A DNA stretch of 39,389 nt, taken from the NCBI GenBank assembly GCA_027306655.1, contig DAHUZL010000111.1:1-39389 (forward strand), written 5' to 3'. Each line of letters starts with the position of its first letter. The first letter of the stretch is position 1. The DNA comes from Candidatus Dormiibacterota bacterium (GTDB lineage: Bacteria; Chloroflexota; Dormibacteria; Aeolococcales; Bog-877). Position numbers and translations under genes: made by a program. The notes under the pieces were generated by a model that was given only the letters and a program-made list of their open reading frames with translations, did no database searches and was not told the DNA's origin. This document shows, in pieces, positions 2,572 to 15,159 of the stretch.

Positions 2572-2583
2572 CCGCGCCGGCCG

Positions 2584-3573
2584 TCAGCTCGGGCCGGAGG
2601 CCCCGGCCTGCCGGACCGCGACGTGGCAGGCCACCGCCCGCCCGCCCGGCAGCGCCCCGAGGTCCGGATCCACCTCCCGGCACACCGGCTCCGCGAGGGG
2701 GCAACGGGGCTGGTAGGGGCAGCCCCGGTCGGGCTCGCGAAGGTCGACCGGGGCCCCGACCGACCGGCCCCGCCGGCGCTCGGCGTCGACCCCAGGGTCC
2801 GGCACCGGCACCGCGGCGGCCAGCGCCTCGGTGTAGGGGTGGAGAGGCCGGTCGAGGACGGCGTCGTAGGGGCCGGCCTCCACCACCTTGCCCAGGTACA
2901 TCACCAGGATCCGGTCGCTGAGGTGGCGAATCATGCTGACGTCGTGACTGATGAACACGTAGGCGAGGCCGAGCCGGTCCTGCATCCCGACGAGGAGATT
3001 GAGCAGCTCGGCCCGCACCGACACGTCCAGGGCGGAGGTGGGTTCGTCGAGGACCAGGACCCCGGGCTGGACCGCCAGGGCCCGGGCGACCGCCACCCGC
3101 TGGGCCTGGCCGCCGGAGAGCTCATGGGGGTAGCGGTCCGCGAACCGTGTTCCCAACGCCACCATCTCGAGGAGCTCCGTCACCCGCTGCCGTCGGCCGT
3201 CCGCCCCCTCCCCGAGGCGATGGACCTGGAGGACCTCCGCCAGGGTTCGCCCGACGGTGCGACGCGGGTCGAGCGAGGAGAAGGGGTCCTGGAACACGAG
3301 CTGGATCCGCCGGGCCAGCTGGAGGCGGGCGTCGCCGGCGCGGGTCGTGACCGGCACCCCATCCACCTCGGCGCCGCCCCGGCTGGGCGCCTCGAGGCCG
3401 ACGAGGAGCCGGGCCAGGGTGGACTTGCCGCAGCCACTCTCGCCGACGATGCCCAGGGTTCCTCCCGAGGGCACCTCCAGGGAGACCCCTCGGAGCGCCC
3501 GCACCGGCGGTCGACCGCCGGTGCCGCGATAGGTCTTGACCAGGTCCCAGCCCCGGACCGCTACCCCTGCCAT
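2584..3573 (-). CDS. Oligopeptide/dipeptide ABC transporter ATP-binding protein (DppF/OppF type)
   Basis: Walker A GESGCGKST, signature LSGGQAQRVAVARAL, Walker B VLVLDEPTSALD, C-terminal oligo_HPY-like CPYQPRCPLAEPVC. Start placed at MAGVAVRGWDLVKTY. Confidence 0.92.
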   Translation of the reverse strand: MAGVAVRGWDLVKTYRGTGGRPPVRALRGVSLEVPSGGTLGIVGESGCGKSTLARLLVGLEAPSRGGAEVDGVPVTTRAGDARLQLARRIQLVFQDPFSSLDPRRTVGRTLAEVLQVHRLGEGADGRRQRVTELLEMVALGTRFADRYPHELSGGQAQRVAVARALAVQPGVLVLDEPTSALDVSVRAELLNLLVGMQDRLGLAYVFISHDVSMIRHLSDRILVMYLGKVVEAGPYDAVLDRPLHPYTEALAAAVPVPDPGVDAERRRGRSVGAPVDLREPDRGCPYQPRCPLAEPVCREVDPDLGALPGGRAVACHVAVRQAGASGPS

Positions 3574-4547
3574 CGGTCCCGAGGCTTCCAGCAGGCGGAC
3601 GCTCGTCCGGGCCCCCGATCCAGGAGGTCCGGCTCCGCTACCCGGCACTCCTGGTCGCCCTGGGGGCAGCGGGGGAGATAGGGACACCCGGACCCGAGGC
3701 GGGCCGGGTCGGGGGGGGATCCCGGGATCTGACGCAGGGTGGCCCGATGTGCCGTCCCCGGGCGCGGGAGCGAGGCGAGCAGGGCGGCCGTGTACGGGTG
3801 CTGGGGGCGCGCGAAGAGGTCCGGGGTCGAGGCGTGCTCGACCACGCGGCCGGCGTACATCACCGCCACCCGGTCGACCAGCCGGGCCACCACCCCGAGG
3901 TCGTGGGTCACCCAGACGACGGCCATTCGGTTCTGGGCCTGCAGCTCGCCCACCAGGCTGAGGATCTGCTCCTGCACGGTCACGTCCAGGGCCGTGGTCG
4001 GCTCATCGGCGATGAGGACCTCGGGCTGGGTGGACAGGGCCATCGCGATCATGACCCGCTGGAGCATGCCCCCCGAGAGCTCGTGGGGGAACGCGCCCTC
4101 GACCCGGGCGGCGTCGCGCAGCCCGACCTGGGACAGGACCTCCCGGGTCCGCTCGCGGGCCCGCCGACGGTCGACGCCATGGGCCACCAGGGTCTCGACG
4201 ATCTGGGTGCGCACCCGAAGGAGCGGATTGAGCGAGCTCATCGGGTCCTGGTAGATCATGGCGATCCGGGCCCCCCGCACCCGCCGGAGGTGCGGCTCGT
4301 CGAGATCGAGGAGCTCCACCCCACCGAGACGGACGCTGCCCCCGAGCACCCGCAGGGCGGGGGTGGGCAGGAGGCCGAGGACGGCCAGCATCGAGAGCGT
4401 CTTGCCGGACCCGCTCTCGCCGACGATGCCGACCTTCTCACCGCCGTCGACGTCGAGATCGACCCCGCGGACGATCTCCACCGGGACGCCGCGTCCGACG
4501 CCGACCCGCAGCCCTCGGATGGTGAGGAGAGGGTGCGCCATTAGCAT
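3561..4547 (-). CDS. Oligopeptide/dipeptide ABC transporter ATP-binding protein (DppD/OppD type)
   Basis: Walker A GESGSGKT, signature LSGGMLQRVMIAMAL, Walker B VLIADEPTTALD, C-terminal CPYLPRCPQGDQECR. Confidence 0.92.
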   Translation of the reverse strand: MLMAHPLLTIRGLRVGVGRGVPVEIVRGVDLDVDGGEKVGIVGESGSGKTLSMLAVLGLLPTPALRVLGGSVRLGGVELLDLDEPHLRRVRGARIAMIYQDPMSSLNPLLRVRTQIVETLVAHGVDRRRARERTREVLSQVGLRDAARVEGAFPHELSGGMLQRVMIAMALSTQPEVLIADEPTTALDVTVQEQILSLVGELQAQNRMAVVWVTHDLGVVARLVDRVAVMYAGRVVEHASTPDLFARPQHPYTAALLASLPRPGTAHRATLRQIPGSPPDPARLGSGCPYLPRCPQGDQECRVAEPDLLDRGPGRASACWKPRDRWQG

Positions 4548-5764
4548 CCCCCGCCCGCAGGGAGAGGCGTGCGGACCACCAGCCGTCGCGGCGGGCGGCC
4601 CCCTCCGGTGAGCGGCAGCGGGCGGGTGCCGGGGGTGACGGCGCCCAGGACCGTCGGGTGGCGCGCACCGGTGCAGGAGGGCAGGGTCCCGGCCCAGCCA
4701 TGAACGGTGAGGTACCCGATCACGGCCATGAGGAGGGCCTCCTTGGCCGCCTCGTCGACGCCGAGGGAGTCAAGACGCTCCAGCGACACTCCCGGGAGGT
4801 GTCGGCTGAGGGCCGCCATCAGGGTGGGATTGCGCGTGCCCCCGCCCGAGACGACGAGCCGCTCCACCCCGTGTCGGACAAGGGCGTCGGCCACCGTGCG
4901 TGCGGTGAGCTCGGTCAGGGTCGCGAGGAGGTCGTCCGGGGCCAGCCGTCGACCGCCGAGGTGCTGCTGCACGTGGCCGAGGTGGAAGTGCTCCTTCCCG
5001 GTCGACTTGGGCGGGGGCGCTGCGTAGTACGGGTCGTGCAGGAGGGACGCGAGGAGCTCGGCGTCGACGCTCCCGCGAGCGGCGCCGCGACCGTCCTCGT
5101 CGCGGTCGACGGCGCCGGCCGCGAGCCAGCCTGCAGCAGCGTCGATGAGCGCGTTGGCGGGGCCGATGTCGAAGGCGACGGGGTCGCGGACCGGCCCCAC
5201 CACGGTGACGTTCGCGATTCCGCCCAGGTTGAGCGCCCCGGTCACCCGGGACGGGTGGGAGCCGAAAAGGAGGACGTCGAGGAGGCTGGCCAGCGGGGCC
5301 CCCTGGCCGCCCGCGGCGATGTCCCGGATGCGGACGTCACTGACGACGGTGGCCCCGGTGCGCTCGGCGATCCAGGCAGCCTGGCCGAGCTGGAGCGTGC
5401 CCAGGGCGCGGCCACCGTCGACCCAGTGGTAGACGGTCTGGCCGTGGCTGCACACGAGGTCGGGCCGACCGCCAGGGTGGCGGTGGACGAGGTCAGCGGC
5501 CACCCCGGCGAAGCACTGGCCGACCCGGGCGTCCAGCGCACAGAGGGCGGCCGCCGTTGTCCGCGCCGGTGGCAGGACCGCCAGCAGGGCATCGCGGACG
5601 GCCGTCGGGTAGGGCACGGACATATGTCCTCTGAGGTCCGCCACCAGTCGGGTGCCGGCCCGGCTCAGCTCCACCAGCACGGCCTCGATCGCGTCGTGCG
5701 AGGTGCCCGAGATCATTCCGATGGTGCGGAGCGGCCGCCCTGCTCCAGCGGTCTGGGCGCTCAC
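4541..5764 (-). CDS. anmK: Anhydro-N-acetylmuramic acid kinase
   Basis: GMISGTSHDAIEAVLVEL, VCSHGQTVYHW, LQLGQAAWIAERTGATVVSD, GGQGAPLASLLD, NLGGIANVTV, FDIGPANALIDA, APPPKSTGKEHFHL, VSGGGTRNPTLM - full AnmK motif set. Confidence 0.92.
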   Translation of the reverse strand: MSAQTAGAGRPLRTIGMISGTSHDAIEAVLVELSRAGTRLVADLRGHMSVPYPTAVRDALLAVLPPARTTAAALCALDARVGQCFAGVAADLVHRHPGGRPDLVCSHGQTVYHWVDGGRALGTLQLGQAAWIAERTGATVVSDVRIRDIAAGGQGAPLASLLDVLLFGSHPSRVTGALNLGGIANVTVVGPVRDPVAFDIGPANALIDAAAGWLAAGAVDRDEDGRGAARGSVDAELLASLLHDPYYAAPPPKSTGKEHFHLGHVQQHLGGRRLAPDDLLATLTELTARTVADALVRHGVERLVVSGGGTRNPTLMAALSRHLPGVSLERLDSLGVDEAAKEALLMAVIGYLTVHGWAGTLPSCTGARHPTVLGAVTPGTRPLPLTGGGRPPRRLVVRTPLPAGGGC

Positions 5765-6663
5765 CGGGTCCGACTCCGGGGATCGGCGGCGTCGCGCAGG
5801 CCGTCACCCAGGAAGTTGAAGCCGATCACGGCGAGGACGATCGCCAGCGAGGGCCCGACCAGCGTCCACCAGGCCACTCCAGCCAGGCTGCTCGACTGGC
5901 TCACCATCTCGCCCAGCGACGCGGTCGGAGGCGGCGGGCCCAGACCGAGGAAGCTGAGGCCGGCCTCGGCCAGGATCGCCCAGGCGAAGGCGAGGCTCGT
6001 CTGCACCGCCACCGCGCCGCCGACATTGGGGAGGATGTGGCCGAAGAGGAGCCGCCGCCGGGAGAAGCCGAGGACGCGCCCGGCCCGGATGAAGTCCGCC
6101 TCGCGCAGGGCCAGGACCGGCCCCCGCACCACCCGCACGAAGATGGGGACGTAGCCGACCCCGATGGCGAGGGCCGAGTCGATCACGCTGGCCCCGAGGG
6201 AGGTGACGATGGCGAGGGCGAGGAGGATGGCGGGGATGGCGAAGATGATGTCCGAGCCCCGCATGATCAGGGCCTCCGGCCACCGTCCCAAGAGCCCGGC
6301 GGTGATCCCTCCGAGCGTGCCCACCACCGCCGCGATCGCCACCGCGATGCCGGCGATCTCGAGCGACACCCCCATCCCCTGGAGGACGAGGGAGAACACG
6401 TCTCGGCCGAACTGGTCGGTTCCGAAGAGGTGGGGCGGCGACGGCCCCCGAAGCACCGCGCTCGAGCTCTGGACCCCGGGGTTCTCCGGCGTGAGACCGA
6501 CCCCGCCCAGGATCCCGGCCAGGCTGACGACTCCGACCAGGACGAGCCCGACCCGTCCGCTCCGGCTGCGCCAGAGCGTGCGCAGCCAGCCCGCCCGGCG
6601 GCGCTCCAGCCCGACCTCCGCGGCGTCGGGATGCCCGAGCAGGCCGCCGCCCACGGCCGTCAT
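5761..6663 (-). CDS. ABC transporter permease (DppC/OppC type)
   Basis: LFGTDQFGRDVFSLVL N-terminal motif and EADFIRAGRVLGFSRRRLLFGHILPN EAA loop of DppC-type permeases. Confidence 0.92.
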   Translation of the reverse strand: MTAVGGGLLGHPDAAEVGLERRRAGWLRTLWRSRSGRVGLVLVGVVSLAGILGGVGLTPENPGVQSSSAVLRGPSPPHLFGTDQFGRDVFSLVLQGMGVSLEIAGIAVAIAAVVGTLGGITAGLLGRWPEALIMRGSDIIFAIPAILLALAIVTSLGASVIDSALAIGVGYVPIFVRVVRGPVLALREADFIRAGRVLGFSRRRLLFGHILPNVGGAVAVQTSLAFAWAILAEAGLSFLGLGPPPPTASLGEMVSQSSSLAGVAWWTLVGPSLAIVLAVIGFNFLGDGLRDAADPRSRTR

Positions 6664-7616
6664 CGAGCCCGGGTCCGCGGGTCGATGACGGTGTAGAGGA
6701 TGTCGGTCAGCATGTTGACGACGACGAAGGCGGCGGCGAAGAGAAGGGTCACACTCTGCACCACCGGGAAGTCACGGTTGGCGATCGATGTGACCAGGAG
6801 CCGCCCCAGCCCGGGAAGGACGAAGATCTGCTCGACGATGACCGTGCCGCCCAGCAGGTAGCCGAGCTGGATCCCGGTCATGGTCACGATCGGGATGGAG
6901 CTGTTGAGGAAGAGGTGGCGCCAGGACACCGTCCGAGGCGCCAGGCCCTTGCCCCTCGCGGTTCGGACGAAGCCCTGACCGCTCACCTCCAGGATGGCGG
7001 CCCGGGTCGTCCGCATGATCGCGGCCCCGATGCCGAGGCTGAGGGCGAGGGCGGGGAAGATGATCTGCTGCAGGTTCAGCCAGGGGTTCTGGAAGAATCC
7101 GGCAAAAGACTGGGAGGACGGAAAGTAGTGGAGGACCGAGGCGAGCAGGGTGACGATGCCGGTGCCGAGGACGAAGCTGGGCACCCCCAACCCCACCACC
7201 GCCACCCCCTGGCCGACCGAGTCGGGTAGCCGCCCGGGATGAAGGGCGCCCAGCATGCCCAGGCCAACGCCGATGAGGAGTCCGAGGACAATCGCCACCA
7301 GGGCCAGCTCGACCGTGACGGGCAGAGCCGCCCCGATCAGGGTCGCCACCGGCTCCCGCGAGGCGAGGGACACGCCCAGGTTGCCGGTGAGGACGGCGAC
7401 CAACCAGGAGACGAACTGCTGGACGGCTGGCTGTCCCACTCCGTAGTAGCGATCCAGCGCTGCCAGCTGCGCGTGGCTCAGAAGCCCGGCGCTCACCCCG
7501 AGGGAGGCGGTGACCGCATTGCCGGGAAGCAGGCGGAGGATGACGAAGATGACGACCGATACCCCCAGCAGGGTGATGACCATGCTGAGGAGGCGCCGGG
7601 CGACCCCGAGCAGCAA
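6660..7616 (-). CDS. ABC transporter permease (DppB/OppB type)
   Basis: Multi-TM protein; MRTTRAAILEVSGQGFVRTARGKGLAPRTVSWRHLFLNSSIPIVTMTGIQLGYLLGGTVIVEQIFVLPGLGRLL is typical of DppB. Confidence 0.92.
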   Translation of the reverse strand: MLLGVARRLLSMVITLLGVSVVIFVILRLLPGNAVTASLGVSAGLLSHAQLAALDRYYGVGQPAVQQFVSWLVAVLTGNLGVSLASREPVATLIGAALPVTVELALVAIVLGLLIGVGLGMLGALHPGRLPDSVGQGVAVVGLGVPSFVLGTGIVTLLASVLHYFPSSQSFAGFFQNPWLNLQQIIFPALALSLGIGAAIMRTTRAAILEVSGQGFVRTARGKGLAPRTVSWRHLFLNSSIPIVTMTGIQLGYLLGGTVIVEQIFVLPGLGRLLVTSIANRDFPVVQSVTLLFAAAFVVVNMLTDILYTVIDPRTRAR

Positions 7617-7645
7617 TGGGGACCTCCCGCTGGACGGAACGGCCA

Positions 7646-7678
7646 GGGTCCGGCCGCGCCGCGGGCGCGGCCGGACCC
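7646..7678. other. Strong intercistronic hairpin (14-bp perfect arms, 5-nt loop) between the SBP gene and dppB
   Basis: GGGTCCGGCCGCGC - CGCGG - GCGCGGCCGGACCC; located between the SBP stop (7687) and the dppB start (7616); no T-tract. Confidence 0.8.
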
Positions 7679-7686
7679 CTCGCGAA

Positions 7687-9252
7687 CTATGAGACGGTCG
7701 TCGAGCTGAGCGCGCGCAGGGAGGTCGAGGTGCTGGGCGAGAGGCTGAACCCGTGCACGCCGGGAGCCAGCACCGCGTAGTCGAAGCTGTCGAAGAGCCA
7801 GATCCAGACCGCGTTGCCGGTCAGCGTGGAGGACAGCTGGCTCCAGATCCGTGACCGCGTCACCGCCGCCGCGGCCTCGTCGCCCTGGACCAGGAGCCGC
7901 TGAAGGGCGGTCGAGCTGTAGCCCGCGGGAACCCCGAGGTTGGCGCCGGGTCCGAAGTACCGCCCGTACATCGTGTAGGGGTCGGGATCGGCGCCATTCT
8001 CGGCGAAAGCGGCCTGGAAGTCACCCTTGAGCCAGTCCTGGATGTAGGCGTCGCCCGCCAGGTTCTGAATGCTCATCTTGATCCCCACCCGGGCCAGCTC
8101 CAGCTGGACCGCGATCGCCTGGGCGCTGCTGGTGGGGTCGAGGTCGGTGGAGGTGATGGCGGTGAAGCTGAACCCGCTCGGGTCGCCGGCGGCCGAGAGG
8201 TAGCGCCGAGCCTGGGCGAGGTCAGGGGTCGCGCAGATCGCCGACACCGGCTTGGAGGCGTAGGGACCGAGGGGCACGGGCCCGACCACCCGGCCCTGGC
8301 CGAAGACGGAGTCGCCCAGCACCTGGCTCCGGTTGACGGCGCAGGCGATGGCCCGCCGGTTGTTCACATTCGCCAGCGGTCCGTGGTGGTCCTGCAGCAT
8401 GAGCGCGCGATAGGAGAGGTCCAGCACCCGGTCCACGTGGAAGGATGAGGGCAGATGGTCGGCCACCTGGGGCTGGGTGAGCAGGCCCAGCTGGACCGTG
8501 TTCGCCTGCAGCGCCGAGGCGATCGACTGCTCCGACGCGATGGTCTTGATCTCGATCCGCGCCAGCGACACCCGGCCGCCCCAGTAGTGGGGATTGCGCT
8601 TGACCACGAAGGAGTTGCCGGGGCTCCAGCTGACGAACTGGAAGGGCCCGGTGCCGTCCGGCCTGGTCGCGATCGAGCCGCTGGCGATCGCCTTCGCGGG
8701 CAGCATGGCCAGGTTCATCGACGTGAGCCCGTAGAGGAGGGACACGTCGGGACGGCTCAGGATGAGCTTCACCGTGTACGGGCCCTCCGCCACCACCTGC
8801 TTCATCGCCGCCAGGTAGGAGGCGGCGGCATCTCCCGTCTTGGGATTGACCACCCGGTTCAGCGAGGCGACCACGTCGGCTGAGGTGAAGGCGGAGCCGT
8901 CGTCGAAGGCGACGCCCTGGCGGAGCTGGAAGGTGATGGAGCGATTTCCCGGGCCGAACTGCCAGCTGGTCGCCAGGTTGGGGACGATCTGCAGCTGGCG
9001 GCTGAGCTGGACCAGGGTGTCGTAGATCAGGCCGAGCGACTGGAAGTCAAGGAAGTTCGTGACCACATCGGGGTCCAGCTTCTGGACGCTCGAGGTGTTG
9101 GCCACGACGAAGGTGGAGCCGGCGCTGCGGGGGTGGGCGGCCGGGTGGCGCTGGGCCGCGGTCGTCGGCACCCCCACCAGAAACAGTCCGCCCAGCCCGA
9201 TTGCGGCCGCGACCGCGGCCATGGGTCGAAGTCGTCGCAGTGGACGGTGCAT
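7687..9252 (-). CDS. Peptide/oligosaccharide ABC transporter substrate-binding protein (SBP family 5)
   Basis: Secretion signal-like N-terminus; SBP_bac_5 features (VVTNFLDFQSLGLIYDTLVQLSRQLQIVPNLATSW, ITFQLRQGVAFDDGSAFTSADVVASLNRV, GTGPFQFVSWSPGNSFVVKRNPHYWGG). Purine-rich RBS upstream on the minus strand. Confidence 0.9.
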   Translation of the reverse strand: MHRPLRRLRPMAAVAAAIGLGGLFLVGVPTTAAQRHPAAHPRSAGSTFVVANTSSVQKLDPDVVTNFLDFQSLGLIYDTLVQLSRQLQIVPNLATSWQFGPGNRSITFQLRQGVAFDDGSAFTSADVVASLNRVVNPKTGDAAASYLAAMKQVVAEGPYTVKLILSRPDVSLLYGLTSMNLAMLPAKAIASGSIATRPDGTGPFQFVSWSPGNSFVVKRNPHYWGGRVSLARIEIKTIASEQSIASALQANTVQLGLLTQPQVADHLPSSFHVDRVLDLSYRALMLQDHHGPLANVNNRRAIACAVNRSQVLGDSVFGQGRVVGPVPLGPYASKPVSAICATPDLAQARRYLSAAGDPSGFSFTAITSTDLDPTSSAQAIAVQLELARVGIKMSIQNLAGDAYIQDWLKGDFQAAFAENGADPDPYTMYGRYFGPGANLGVPAGYSSTALQRLLVQGDEAAAAVTRSRIWSQLSSTLTGNAVWIWLFDSFDYAVLAPGVHGFSLSPSTSTSLRALSSTTVS

Positions 9253-9293
9253 GGGCCCTCCCCCAAATCGACTGGTCAGCCAGGTTCCGAGCG

Positions 9294-9322
9294 ACTCTAC
9301 AACTTCTTCATGGTACGGTCAA
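9294..9322 (-). promoter_or_regulatory. Predicted sigma70-type promoter for the ABC/anmK operon
   Basis: Minus strand TTGACC (9322-9317) - 17 bp - TAGAGT (9299-9294). Confidence 0.65.
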
Positions 9323-9423
9323 CTCCGACCCGCCCACAGGGGAATCGGCCGCTCATCCCCGAGATCACCGGTGCACCCTCTCGCTCCTCCAGGCAACCGA
9401 TGGGTCCCAGTTGACCGGACCAT
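9310..9423. repeat. Inverted repeat pair: 9310-9324 ATGGTACGGTCAACT and 9409-9423 AGTTGACCGGACCAT (14/15 match)
   Basis: Reverse complement of the first arm is AGTTGACCGTACCAT, differing from the second by one base. Each arm contains the -35 of one divergent promoter. Confidence 0.8.
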
Positions 9424-9439
9424 GATCTCTTGGTACTGT
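9411..9439 (+). promoter_or_regulatory. Predicted sigma70-type promoter for the gntR-gnat operon
   Basis: TTGACC (9411-9416) - 17 bp - TACTGT (9434-9439). Confidence 0.65.
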
Positions 9440-9489
9440 GCCTCTCGGCCTCGGCGCTCGTGGGGGCGCCCGAAGCAGGGGAGGGGCAG

Positions 9490-10809
9490 GTGCGCGAGAC
9501 CGCCGGCCAGCCGAAGTATCGCCGGCTGCGCGACACCCTGACCGCGCTGGTCCGAGACCTGCCCGACGGGGCCGCCCTCCCCACCGAACGCGAGCTCTGC
9601 CAGACGTTCGCGGTGTCGCGGTCGACGGTTCGCCAGGCCCTCCACCAGCTCGAGGTCGAGCAGAAGGTGGTGCGTCGTCAGGGCAGGGGAACCTTCGCGG
9701 CCCGGCCCAAGGTCGAGCAACCGCTCGAACTCACCAGCCACACCGAGGACATGCAGGCCCGCGGCATGGTCCCCGGCTCCAAGCTGATCGACGTGAGGCG
9801 GGTCGCTGCCGAGGGCGAGCCGGCGGCGATGCTGGGGGTGGCGGTCGGATCGGAGCTGCTGCGAATCGAGCGCCTGCGCCTGGCCGACGGGGATCCAATG
9901 GCGATCGAGGTGCTCTTCGTCGACGGGGCCCGATTCGATGGGATCTCGGCCGCCCTGGGCGAGCACGCATCCTTCTATCAGCTGCTCCACGCCACCTATG
10001 GGGTTGAGCTGGCATCGGCCGAGGAGACCATCGAGGCGGTGGTCGCCGGGACCCGCGAGGCGGAGCTGCTGGGGTCGCGACCCGGCGCCCCCCTCCTCCT
10101 CCTCTCCCGCCGCACCCTCGACACGGCCGGCCGCCCGACCGAGTTCGTCCGCTCGCTCTACCGAGGCGACCGCGTCCGCTTCCGTACCAACCTGCGGCGC
10201 CCGCCGGGCGGCTCGGACCGGACCCCGGGGACCCTTCTCCGCGATGCCGTTCCCGCCGACGCCCCGGCCCTGGGCTCGGTGTTCATCGCGGCATGGAGGG
10301 AGGCCTACCCCGGGATCGTGGACGCCGCCATCCTGGCCGCCCTGGACCCGGACGAGGTCACCGATTGGCTCCAGAGCCTGCTCGACTCGGTCGGACGGAC
10401 GATGGTCGTGGCCGAGGATCCAGCCGGGCGGGTCGTGGGCTTCACCCGCTTCGGCGAGGATCCCGATGACCCGCGCCGGGGGCAGGTCTACGCCCTCTAC
10501 GTCCATCCGGGCGCCGCCCACCGGGGCATCGGGCACGCCCTGCTCGGACACGCCGTGGAGCGATTGTCCGCCGATCGTCCCGCGTCCGTGTCGCTCTGGG
10601 TGTTCGAGCGCAACCATCGGGCCCGTCGCCTCTACGCATCGCTGGGTTTCACCCCCGACGGTGCCCGCCGGATCGATCCGCGCTATCGGGCCGAAGAGGT
10701 CAGGCTGCTTCGGCCCTGGGACGGACGGCCTGCGATCCGGGAGCTGCCCCCCGCCCCTGCAGCCGTCGGCCTCCAGGCGATGGACGGGCCCCGACGGACG
10801 CACGGGTGA
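9490..10809 (+). CDS. GntR (HutC/UTRA) transcriptional regulator fused to a C-terminal GNAT acetyltransferase domain
   Basis: N-terminal wHTH LRDTLTALVRDLPDGAALPTERELCQTFAVSRSTVRQALHQLEVEQKVVRRQGRGTFAA; UTRA-like middle; C-terminal GNAT with acetyl-CoA loop VYALYVHPGAAHRGIGHALLGHAVERL and WVFERNHRARRLYASLGF. GTG start with GGAGGGG RBS. Confidence 0.85.
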   Translation: MRETAGQPKYRRLRDTLTALVRDLPDGAALPTERELCQTFAVSRSTVRQALHQLEVEQKVVRRQGRGTFAARPKVEQPLELTSHTEDMQARGMVPGSKLIDVRRVAAEGEPAAMLGVAVGSELLRIERLRLADGDPMAIEVLFVDGARFDGISAALGEHASFYQLLHATYGVELASAEETIEAVVAGTREAELLGSRPGAPLLLLSRRTLDTAGRPTEFVRSLYRGDRVRFRTNLRRPPGGSDRTPGTLLRDAVPADAPALGSVFIAAWREAYPGIVDAAILAALDPDEVTDWLQSLLDSVGRTMVVAEDPAGRVVGFTRFGEDPDDPRRGQVYALYVHPGAAHRGIGHALLGHAVERLSADRPASVSLWVFERNHRARRLYASLGFTPDGARRIDPRYRAEEVRLLRPWDGRPAIRELPPAPAAVGLQAMDGPRRTHG

Positions 10810-10819
10810 TCCACGCGGG

Positions 10820-11920
10820 ATGAGGACCGCGGCCGGCTCCGGGTCTCAGCTGGAGTTGATCGAGGACGGCCCCCCGGGGCGACGATCCGGGCGGTTCCTG
10901 GGCGAGCTGGCCGGGGCGGTCGCCGCCGGACATCCCCCGAGCCTGCAGCTGGCGGTGGTGGGCCCGGCGGGGACGGCGATGCAGGCCTGGGGAGGGCTGG
11001 CCTGTGCGGTGGGCGATCCGACCCCGTCCACCCGCTCGACGCTCTATGACCTGGCCTCGCTGACCAAGGTGACCGTCACCGTTCCGCTCGCGGTCTGGCT
11101 GGAGCAGCGCGGCAGCTGGGCGCTCGACGACGCGGTGGCGAGGTGGGTCCCCCGCTTCCCTCGCACCGAGATCACCCTCCGCCATCTCCTCACCCACACC
11201 TCGGGGCTCCCCGCCCATCGACCCTTCTACCACCTCGGCCGGGGGCGTCCGACCGTGGAGCGGGCGCTGTTCGCCGAGGCGCGGTCGGCGGGTGCTCCGG
11301 GCCCGGTCCTCTACAGTGACCTGAACTTCATCCTCCTGGGATGGGCCGTGGCCCGCTGCGCCGGCACCCCTCTCGACCGCCTCACCGCCCTGCGCATCGC
11401 GGCGCCCCTGGGGATGACAACCGCCCGCTTCCGCCCGCCCGCGGGTCGGCGGACCGCGACCGCCGCCACCGAGCTGGACGGTGACCAGCGGCTGGAGCCG
11501 GGCCTCATCTGGGGGACGGTCCATGACGGCAACGCGGCGGCGCTGGGCGGGGTGGCGGGCCATGCCGGCCTCTTCGGCACCGCCTGGGACCTGGCCGCCT
11601 TCGCCCGGCCGCTGCTGGGCGGGCCGCCCCATCCACTGCTGAGCCCGTCGTCGATCGCGGCGATGTCCACGGCCCAGGCCGGCCGTCCGCCGGAGGTCCG
11701 AGGGCTGGGATGGCGGATCGGAGCGCCGGCCGAGTGGGGCCGGTGGCCTGCCTCCACCCTCTGGCACACCGGGTTCACCGGGACCTCGCTCCTGATCGCC
11801 CCCGCGGTCCCGGTCGCGGTCGCCCTTGTCAGCAACGGCGTCCACCCGCACCGGGCCCCGGCGGAGCAGGCGGCCCTCCGCGAGCACGTGCATCGCTGGG
11901 TGGCGCGGGCGTGGGGATGA
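10820..11920 (+). CDS. Serine hydrolase, class C beta-lactamase/PBP4*-like (YbbE-like by context)
   Basis: SLTK (SxxK) in LYDLASLTKVTVTVPLAVWLEQRG, LRHLLTHTSGLPAHRPFY, YSDLNFILLGW, HTGFTGTSLLI. Confidence 0.85.
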   Translation: MRTAAGSGSQLELIEDGPPGRRSGRFLGELAGAVAAGHPPSLQLAVVGPAGTAMQAWGGLACAVGDPTPSTRSTLYDLASLTKVTVTVPLAVWLEQRGSWALDDAVARWVPRFPRTEITLRHLLTHTSGLPAHRPFYHLGRGRPTVERALFAEARSAGAPGPVLYSDLNFILLGWAVARCAGTPLDRLTALRIAAPLGMTTARFRPPAGRRTATAATELDGDQRLEPGLIWGTVHDGNAAALGGVAGHAGLFGTAWDLAAFARPLLGGPPHPLLSPSSIAAMSTAQAGRPPEVRGLGWRIGAPAEWGRWPASTLWHTGFTGTSLLIAPAVPVAVALVSNGVHPHRAPAEQAALREHVHRWVARAWG

Positions 11921-14013
11921 GGGGACCGGCGGATTCCCCCGCCGGCCTGGTTGGGCTCGCGACCGAGCAGGTTCGGGACGACGTGGGCGACCTGGATACG
12001 CTGACGGTCGACGCCATCGTCGGCCTCATGTGCGCCGAGGCGAGGCGGGCGCCCGCGGCGGTGGCGGTGGCCGGGCCCGCGATCACCCGTGCCGTCGAGG
12101 CCGTCGTCCTCCGCCTCCAGGCGGGCGGGCGTCTCGTCTATGTCGGGGCGGGGACCGCGGGACGGCTCGGCATGCTCGACGCGGCCGAGGCGGGACCCAC
12201 CTTCAGCGCTCCGCCGGGGCAGGTGGTGGCCGTGCTGGCGGGGGGAGACGGCGCCGTCAGCGTGCCGGCCGAGCGGGCCGAGGACGATCGGGACGCGGGG
12301 TCCCGGGCGATGACGGAGCTCGGAATCGGCCCGGCCGATGCGGTGGTGGGGATCTCGGCCAGCGGTCGGACCCCGTACGTGGTGGCGGCGGTGGAGACCG
12401 CCAGGGGCGCCGGCGCCGTCACCGTGGGCCTTGCCTGCAACGTCGGGTCCCCGCTGGGGCAGGCGGCGGAGCTCGCGATCGAGGTGGCGGTGGGGCCCGA
12501 GGTCATCGGCGGGTCGACCCGGCTCAATGCCGGCACGGCGCAGAAGATCGTGCTCAACATCATCTCGACCGCCGCCATGGTCAGGCTCGGCAAGGTCCAC
12601 GGGACCCTGATGGTGGAGCTCCGTCCCACCAACCAGAAGCTACGCGACCGGGCGGTCCGGATCGTCGCCGCGGTCGCCGCGGTCAGTCTCTCCGAGGCGC
12701 GCGCGGCCCTGGGCCAGGCGATGTGGCAACCCAAGGTGGCCGCGGTGATGCTGGTCGGGAGGACGGACCGCGATCGGGCGCTGGCACTGCTGGCGGAGCG
12801 CAACGGTCGCCTGCGGCCGGTCCTCGACGCACTGTCCGCTCCGGCGGGGGCGAGGCCCGCCGCGGCTCCCGCCGTTCCGACGCAGCGCTCGCGGCGGCTG
12901 GGGGTGGGGGCGGCGGTGGTCGACGGCACCCTGGTCCGCGGCGACGTCGCCGTCCGTGCCGGACGGATCGTGGCGGTGGGGCTGCCCGGCTCGGGCCAGG
13001 ACCTGGCCATCCCTGGGCTGGTCGACCTCCAGGTGAACGGCTACGCCGGCGTCGACATCCTCGAGGCCGATCCCGACGCGCTCCGGTCCATGGGCGCGGC
13101 CCTGATCCGCGCCGGGGTCTTCGCCTACCTGCCCACCCTGGTCAGCGGCGAGGTGGCCCCGACGGTCGAAGCGATCCGCCGCATCACGCAGTACATCGAG
13201 CACCCCGGGCAGGGTGGGGGCCCGGTCGCCTCCCCGCTCGGCGTCCACCTGGAGGGGCCGTTCCTCGCCCCCGGGCGAGCCGGAGCCCACCGGCTCCGCC
13301 ACCTGCGCCCGCCCGACCCGGTCCTCCTCGCGGAGCTGCTGGGCGCGGGCCGGGTGAGCCTCCTCACCCTGGCGCCGGAGCTGCCGGGGGCGCTTGCGCT
13401 CATCGCCGACGCGGTGGCGCGGGGGGTGGTCGTCTCGCTCGGACACAGCGCGGCCACCGCTGAGGAGGCCCGGGCCGCCCACGCCGCTGGGGCCACCGCC
13501 GTCACCCACCTCTTCAATGGGATGCCCCCGCTGGCCTCGCGGTCACCGGGGCTGGCCGCGTCCGCGCTCCTTCTTCCCGGACTCACCCCCCAGGTCATCG
13601 CCGATGGGCTCCACGTCGCCGACGAGATGGTGCGCCTGGCATTCCAGGCCGCCCCCGGCCGCTGCACCCTGGTCAGCGATGCGATCGCGGCCGCCGGCGT
13701 GGGAGACGGCCCGTTCCGGCTCGGAGACCTCGACATCGAGGTGCGCGACGGGGTGGCCCGTCGGTCGGACGGGACACTGGCGGGGAGCGCCCTGGGACTC
13801 GCCACCGGGCTGGTCACCCTTCACCGCCTCGGCGTCAGCCTCACCGACTCCGTGGACGCGGCCACCCGGCGACCGGCTCAGCTGCTGGGTGAGCCTCGGG
13901 TCGGGCGTCTCATCCCGGGCGGTTCCGCGAACCTCATCGTGGTCGACGGGGCCCTGAGCCTCCGCCGGGTCCTGGCCGCTGGACGGGAGCTCGACCCGCC
14001 CGCGCCCCGCTGA
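11917..14013 (+). CDS. murQ-nagA: Bifunctional N-acetylmuramic acid 6-phosphate etherase (MurQ) - N-acetylglucosamine-6-phosphate deacetylase (NagA) fusion
   Basis: Start ATGA overlaps the previous stop. N-half: GAGTAGRLGMLDAAEAGPTF, LAGGDGAV, AEDDRDAG, VGISASGRTPYVV, GGSTRLNAGTAQKIVLNIISTAAMVRLGKVHGTLMVELRPTNQKL. C-half: IPGLVDLQVNGYAGVD, GVHLEGPFLAPGRAGAH, VSLGHSAATAEEA, VTHLFNGM, VIADGLHV, LVSDAIAAAG. Junction near 12840-12890. Confidence 0.9.
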   Translation: MRGPADSPAGLVGLATEQVRDDVGDLDTLTVDAIVGLMCAEARRAPAAVAVAGPAITRAVEAVVLRLQAGGRLVYVGAGTAGRLGMLDAAEAGPTFSAPPGQVVAVLAGGDGAVSVPAERAEDDRDAGSRAMTELGIGPADAVVGISASGRTPYVVAAVETARGAGAVTVGLACNVGSPLGQAAELAIEVAVGPEVIGGSTRLNAGTAQKIVLNIISTAAMVRLGKVHGTLMVELRPTNQKLRDRAVRIVAAVAAVSLSEARAALGQAMWQPKVAAVMLVGRTDRDRALALLAERNGRLRPVLDALSAPAGARPAAAPAVPTQRSRRLGVGAAVVDGTLVRGDVAVRAGRIVAVGLPGSGQDLAIPGLVDLQVNGYAGVDILEADPDALRSMGAALIRAGVFAYLPTLVSGEVAPTVEAIRRITQYIEHPGQGGGPVASPLGVHLEGPFLAPGRAGAHRLRHLRPPDPVLLAELLGAGRVSLLTLAPELPGALALIADAVARGVVVSLGHSAATAEEARAAHAAGATAVTHLFNGMPPLASRSPGLAASALLLPGLTPQVIADGLHVADEMVRLAFQAAPGRCTLVSDAIAAAGVGDGPFRLGDLDIEVRDGVARRSDGTLAGSALGLATGLVTLHRLGVSLTDSVDAATRRPAQLLGEPRVGRLIPGGSANLIVVDGALSLRRVLAAGRELDPPAPR

Positions 14014-14165
14014 CGCAGATGGTCGATGCCGGGTCGGCGCGGTCTGTTCGGGGTGCCCGCGCCATTGGTCTCGGGCCCGCCGGCAGGTCCAACCCACCCG
14101 CTCGGCACCCGAAGTAGTGACCGTTGAGATCAGCCATGCGGCGTAGGGTCCAATACCGGGGAAGA

Positions 14166-14186
14166 TAGCACCTATTGTGCTACACT
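14166..14186 (+). promoter_or_regulatory. Predicted leaderless vapBC-type promoter with overlapping inverted repeat operator
   Basis: TAGCAC-ctatt-GTGCTA (14166-14182) overlapping an extended -10, TGC-TACACT (14178-14186), 7 nt before the GTG start at 14194. Confidence 0.55.
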
Positions 14187-14193
14187 TCACCCC

Positions 14194-14472
14194 GTGACGC
14201 GGATTGGTGTGCGCGAACTGCGGCAGCACGCGAGCCGGTACCTCGACCTGGTCAAGGCAGGCGAGACGGTGGAGGTGTCTGAGCGAGGGGAGCTGGTCGC
14301 GCTGCTGGTCTCACCGCGTCCGGCGGTGGCGGCGCGCGATCGCCTGGTGGCCGCGGGTCGGCTGGCACCGGCCCCGGCTCGGTTCCAGCTACCGGCTCGC
14401 CGGGTCCGCCCGGACAGGGAGGAGACGGCGTCCGCGGTCCTCGACCGGCTGCGTGGAGAGCGGTTGGCGTGA
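14194..14472 (+). CDS. Phd/YefM-type antitoxin (VapB-like)
   Basis: VRELRQHASRYLDLVKAGETVEVSERGELVALLV is a Phd/YefM N-terminal DNA-binding motif; overlaps the downstream PIN gene. Confidence 0.88.
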   Translation: MTRIGVRELRQHASRYLDLVKAGETVEVSERGELVALLVSPRPAVAARDRLVAAGRLAPAPARFQLPARRVRPDREETASAVLDRLRGERLA

Positions 14473-14861
14473 TCTACCTCGACACCTCTGCGCTGGTGAA
14501 GCTCGTCTTCGAGGAAGCCGAGAGCGAGGCGTTGGAGCGGTGGCTGGTGGAGCGAGACGACTCGCCGAAGGTGACCAGCGAGCTCTCGACCATCGAGCTC
14601 CTTCGTGCGTGCCGCCGCGTCGACGAGGGGGCCGTGACGGCAGCACGGCAGGTCCTGGCCGGCCTTGACCTGCTCCCGATGACCGGCGAGCTCGTGGGAC
14701 AGGCGGCCTTGGTCGGCCCTGCCGAGCTGCGCAGCCTCGATGCCATCCACCTGGCAAGCGCCCTGATGTTGACCGGGACCCTCGACGCCTTCGTCGCGTA
14801 CGACACCAGGCTGGGCACGGCCGCTCGCGACGCCGGCCTCGAGGTCGCGGCACCCGCGTGA
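14469..14861 (+). CDS. PIN-domain ribonuclease toxin (VapC-like)
   Basis: MIYLDTSALVKLVFEEAESEAL N-terminus, TSELSTIELLRA, LRSLDAIHLASAL, FVAYDTRLGTAARDAGLEV - canonical PIN acidic residues. Confidence 0.92.
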   Translation: MIYLDTSALVKLVFEEAESEALERWLVERDDSPKVTSELSTIELLRACRRVDEGAVTAARQVLAGLDLLPMTGELVGQAALVGPAELRSLDAIHLASALMLTGTLDAFVAYDTRLGTAARDAGLEVAAPA

Positions 14862-15159
14862 GGGGTGCTCCCGTCTCCGGTCTTCGCATCGGCGGCCCAC
14901 CGAGCATCCGCTGCTGCCGGTGACACGTATCGGACACTGTCCCCGAGTGGTTCCTCGCCGAGGTCGTCGCGGTGGCGGCGGGACCCCGGACCGGCGCGGA
15001 CGACACCGATCGACCGCGCTGCACCGATACGACCACCCGATGCCGATACCTGCCCGTCAGGGATGTCACACTCGCGTGCACCCTGGCCAGATGCCCGCGG
15101 GCACGGTCATACTGCGACGCATCGATCCGGGGGAGCTGTGACGTCCCCACCGAGGAGTC

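Follow-up and report, generated by a model that had tools for sequence, protein, structure and literature searches.

A predicted bifunctional MurQ-NagA fusion protein in a probably horizontally acquired muropeptide-recycling cluster

The order in which MurQ and NagA act in peptidoglycan recycling is established, MurNAc-6-P being converted to GlcNAc-6-P and then to GlcN-6-P (PMC5061867, PMC13041923). The murQ operon of Escherichia coli contains PBP4B and has a divergent regulator, and murQ of Bacillus subtilis adjoins the amidase gene amiE (PMC5061867). In Agrobacterium, muropeptides are imported by an ABC transporter (PMC9790009).

In known systems MurQ, with about 300 amino acids, and NagA are made as separate proteins. 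By comparison, the window analyzed here (the whole stretch of 39,389 nucleotides from a Candidatus Dormiibacterota genome) encodes one protein of 698 amino acids in which MurQ is the N-terminal half and NagA the C-terminal half, with a linker between them. Taken singly, each half is a typical member of a known family; what is new is the domain architecture. We found no earlier report of a MurQ-NagA protein in the literature searched, which lay mostly outside subscription journals, and examples may exist unannotated in sequence databases. By joining two consecutive recycling steps in one protein, the architecture provides a natural experiment on whether coupling of the MurQ and NagA steps matters. 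It also points to the adjoining ABC transporter and hydrolase as likely recycling components, both in Actinomycetota and in a lineage that resembles Chloroflexota, where this process has been little studied.

A single reading frame and its recurrence

The fusion gene (Table 1) begins with an ATG that overlaps the stop codon of the upstream hydrolase gene (ATGA, 11917-11920). G+C at third codon positions is 0.82-0.98 from one end of the frame to the other, the junction block at 12817 included, as expected if all of it is coding. The original prediction of a single uninterrupted frame is borne out by its stop-free translation, by this continuous composition, and by recurrence in six other genomes; the motifs quoted for each half and the position given for the linker were correct on re-inspection. 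The source genome, a draft in 233 contigs (92% complete, 3% contamination), was searched for further copies, and the fusion is its sole MurQ and its sole full-length NagA.

Table 1. Features of the fusion gene and its surroundings (window positions; dot, no strand)
Feature	Position	Strand	Basis
OppF-type ATPase	2584..3687	-	Profile matches
OppD-type ATPase	3561..4547	-	Profile matches
AnmK, anhydro-MurNAc kinase	4541..5764	-	539 bits, cut-off 440
OppC-type permease	5761..6663	-	Profile matches
OppB-type permease	6660..7616	-	Profile matches
Family 5 solute-binding protein (SBP_bac_5)	7687..9252	-	Profile match
Divergent intergenic region, presumed control region for both operons	9253..9429	.	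Position
GntR/UTRA regulator fused to GNAT acetyltransferase	9430..10809	+	Profile matches
Beta-lactamase-fold serine hydrolase (provisional start codon)	10766..11920	+	Nearest NCBIfam PBP4B, below cut-off
MurQ-NagA fusion, 698 aa	11917..14013	+	Translation, NCBIfam profiles, PDB matches, structure model, Foldseek
MurQ half, residues 1-306	11917..12834	+	NCBIfam, PDB alignment, fusion alignment
Ala/Pro-rich linker, residues 307-325 (about 20 residues)	12835..12891	+	Structure model, fusion alignment
NagA half, residues 326-698	12892..14010	+	NCBIfam, E. coli NagA alignment, fusion alignment
Phd-like antitoxin and PIN toxin pair	14194..14861	+	Antitoxin just below Pfam cut-off
Island, probably acquired	2572..15150	.	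Nucleotide comparison with same-genus genome G001

The predicted order of domains was recovered with NCBIfam, in which MurQ and then nagA profiles matched within the one protein. Residues 14-306 match the MurQ family PRK05441 (NF003915) at 345 bits against a cut-off of 168; the same half scores 311 bits with NF009222 (cut-off 255) and 294 with TIGR00274, just under the equivalog cut-off of 302. Residues 365-684 match nagA TIGR00221 over model positions 55-374 of 380 (E 9e-65), scoring 219 bits, slightly short of the cut-off of 225.65. In a sequence search of the PDB, the best matches were MurQ 4s12 for residues 13-302 (E 1.9e-69) and NagA 1o12 for residues 335-687 (E 8e-54), and Foldseek on a predicted model gave TM-scores to target of 0.97 with 4s12 (rmsd 0.9) for the MurQ half, and of 0.91 with 1o12 and 0.87 with 2p50 for the NagA half. 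No single NCBIfam or Pfam match spans both halves, nor does any of the PDB chains listed. The model, with a mean pLDDT of 92.6, low confidence only at residues 1-9 and 309-322, and a pTM of 0.63, depicts two well-folded domains whose mutual orientation is uncertain, and the structure therefore gives channelling no support.

No second fusion was found among 400 genomes of the same phylum or 110 of the same class; in these genomes the murQ and nagA genes frequently lie side by side. When GTDB contigs were scanned, one fusion came to light in a metagenome-assembled genome of Acidimicrobiaceae (PMWT01000197.1, L058), and searches around that genome, among others of its class and order, added five more (L165, L219, L220, L221 and L222). 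All seven fusions, that of the window included, are encoded as one open frame each, and the window protein is 53-64% identical to the other six in the MurQ half and 51-57% identical in the NagA half. With six further genomes carrying the fusion, both chance and a local sequencing error at the junction can effectively be dismissed: the architecture is genuine, if rare.

Elsewhere the unfused state was seen, with murQ-anmK-nagA or murQ-nagA as separate neighbouring genes. Loci of Bacillus with matches to each half (L059, L063-L073 and others) and one further candidate (G276/L024) were rejected as fusions since they, too, are separate neighbours, and a search of plasmids yielded only separate murQ and nagA genes among the matches listed. 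A different fusion, AnmK-MurQ, was observed with AnmK first and in one frame in three genomes of a single family of the same phylum (L030 334-2400, L040 262-2430 and L050 217-2391), where consecutive recycling steps are likewise joined.

Origin of the fusion and of the surrounding island

In a tree of MurQ halves the fusions form one clade (support 100/99), and in a tree of NagA halves they again form one clade (100/99) that also includes one standalone NagA; the nearest outgroups are Actinomycetota-type sequences. These sequence trees indicate a single fusion event among Actinomycetota (Acidimicrobiia-type) sequences. The standalone NagA (L223 12086-13453) has no MurQ nearby and probably lost its MurQ half.

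The nesting of that protein within the fusion clade is one of three points in favor of an unlikely alternative, that the chain is processed, or NagA made also from an internal start, and that the fusion brings no functional coupling. The others are in-frame GTG codons at 12904 and 12916, and a linker that is poorly conserved (10-40% identity between the window and other fusions). However, we noticed by eye no clear ribosome-binding site near either GTG, initiation at these codons would truncate the RLGV segment, which every fusion conserves, and the fused state has been kept in seven divergent genomes.

The cluster that contains the fusion gene lies between genes for a Cys/Met PLP enzyme and an MMPL transporter. 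Nucleotide similarity to the same-genus genome G001 stops at position 2553 of the window and restarts at 15151. The site is empty in five relatives from the same family, the Cys/Met PLP and MMPL genes being about 700-950 bases apart, and the cluster was thus probably gained horizontally. Judged from sequence comparison, the simplest account is that the whole island was probably acquired in this way, and the fusion architecture appears to have moved between distant bacteria.

Mis-assembled actinobacterial DNA, with no true horizontal transfer, is a quite unlikely source of the island. The nearest fusions do come from genomes in the class and order of the Acidimicrobiaceae genome, and the source genome carries some contamination (3%), but both flanks are native and lie on the same contig, with 76% identity for MMPL in the same-genus genome and, on either side, an unchanged gene order of HpcH, Cys/Met enzyme, MMPL, MaoC.

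Two further observations concern the edges of the island. In G001 the corresponding gap holds a TetR-like gene (recognized by eye), which the island replaces beside the MMPL transporter, so this transporter may have been deprived of a local regulator. The antitoxin-toxin pair of Table 1 lies at the island's right edge.

Active-site residues of the two halves

Glu91 and Glu122 of the fusion align with Glu89 and Glu120 of Haemophilus influenzae MurQ, the catalytic glutamates of that enzyme. In the NagA half, Q372, N374, E446, H458, H510, H531, R542, H566 and D588 align with Q59, N61, E131, H143, H195, H216, R227, H251 and D273 of E. coli NagA, among which E131, H195, H216 and D273, together with H143, R227 and H251, are metal and catalytic residues. 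The fusions do not vary at either glutamate or at any of the nine NagA active-site residues checked, so that the eleven catalytic or ligand residues are identical in seven of seven.

This conservation argues against a dead or regulatory half, for instance a SIS half that acts as a sugar-phosphate sensor like GKRP. Pfam labels the MurQ part by GKRP domains, and SIS domains can be regulatory; yet by PDB sequence search the MurQ half is much nearer to true MurQ structures than to GKRP, and the genome has no other MurQ, which leaves such a reading very unlikely. An assembly or sequencing error that joined adjacent murQ and nagA genes is barely credible, and was rejected on the six further fusions: genomes of the same class commonly carry murQ and nagA in tandem, and the assembly is a fragmented draft, but the other fusions have varied linkers (17-25 residues over the aligned stretch) within the same cluster, and coding composition continues over the junction.

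The recycling cluster and comparison with known systems

In all seven clusters a GNAT gene and the beta-lactamase-fold hydrolase gene precede the fusion, which is oriented away from a divergent operon that encodes the binding protein, OppB, OppC, AnmK, OppD and OppF. The hydrolase has SLTK, YSD and HTG motifs in each of the seven, and no signal peptide was noticed by eye on that of the window. GNAT is fused to GntR/UTRA in five of the seven; L219 and L222 have GNAT without GntR at that position. No operator was identified in the divergent intergenic region of the window, nor any site shared across the three loci compared, and a conserved operator between the divergent operons was rejected, the palindromes of L058 and L165 being different. 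A related cluster (L170 1198-9744) has the same importer, hydrolase and AnmK genes, with MurQ unfused and NagA absent.

The proposal that two consecutive recycling enzymes are fused is supported by families, motifs, fold, context and comparison, and on these same grounds the protein most likely performs both reactions. We consider it very probable that it is a bifunctional enzyme converting MurNAc-6-P to GlcN-6-P within a module for muropeptide import and recycling, gained horizontally with the cluster. The Opp-type importer would take in muropeptides or anhydro-MurNAc and the hydrolase would trim peptide, both substrates being suggested by context, and AnmK would yield MurNAc-6-P. In the cytoplasm, the N-terminal half would convert MurNAc-6-P to GlcNAc-6-P and D-lactate and the C-terminal half GlcNAc-6-P to GlcN-6-P and acetate, the latter sugar feeding GlmM/GlmU and new wall synthesis. 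MurQ-NagA would thus form the terminal part of a self-contained module, the fusion having presumably arisen once among Acidimicrobiia-type sequences and entered the source genome with the whole cluster. Neither GH3 NagZ nor NamZ was detected when sought in the source genome (92% complete). This points to an imported fragment that carries no GlcNAc on arrival, to removal of GlcNAc by another enzyme, or to a gene located in the unrecovered portion of the genome.

The benefit of fusion most likely lies in a fixed 1:1 stoichiometry, in deacetylation pulling the etherase step, and in low free GlcNAc-6-P; direct channelling between the halves is a further, more speculative possibility. A more speculative and somewhat doubtful idea is that the fusion is the hub of a horizontally mobile, self-contained module for muropeptide import and recycling, in which GlcNAc-6-P, a signal metabolite, would pass straight from MurQ to NagA and never accumulate. 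If true, the pairwise fusions along the chain (AnmK-MurQ and MurQ-NagA) would show repeated selection for coupling.

Both parent enzymes, MurQ and NagA, function as oligomers. Likeness of the N-terminal half to MurQ (E. coli, H. influenzae 4LZJ, Yersinia enterocolitica 4S12) extends over the whole fold and both catalytic glutamates, and that of the C-terminal half to NagA (E. coli 1YMY, Thermotoga maritima 1O12) over the whole fold and the metal and substrate residues, with a QxN motif of the E. coli type. The neighbourhood is also alike, a PBP4B/AmiE-like hydrolase and recycling genes being near MurQ in known systems and here. With the murQ divergon of E. coli (murR / murQ-murP-yfeW) and the murQRP-amiE-nagZ-ybbC cluster of B. 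subtilis, the present locus shares genes for MurNAc-6-P recycling, a penicillin-binding-type hydrolase or amidase, a dedicated importer and a regulator. YejBEF-YepA of Agrobacterium is likewise a peptide-type ABC importer in peptidoglycan recycling, its likeness to the window importer being by analogy only. Unlike the E. coli and B. subtilis clusters, the locus described here has an Opp-type ABC transporter in place of the PTS, a GntR/UTRA regulator with a GNAT domain, AnmK, and MurQ and NagA as one protein.
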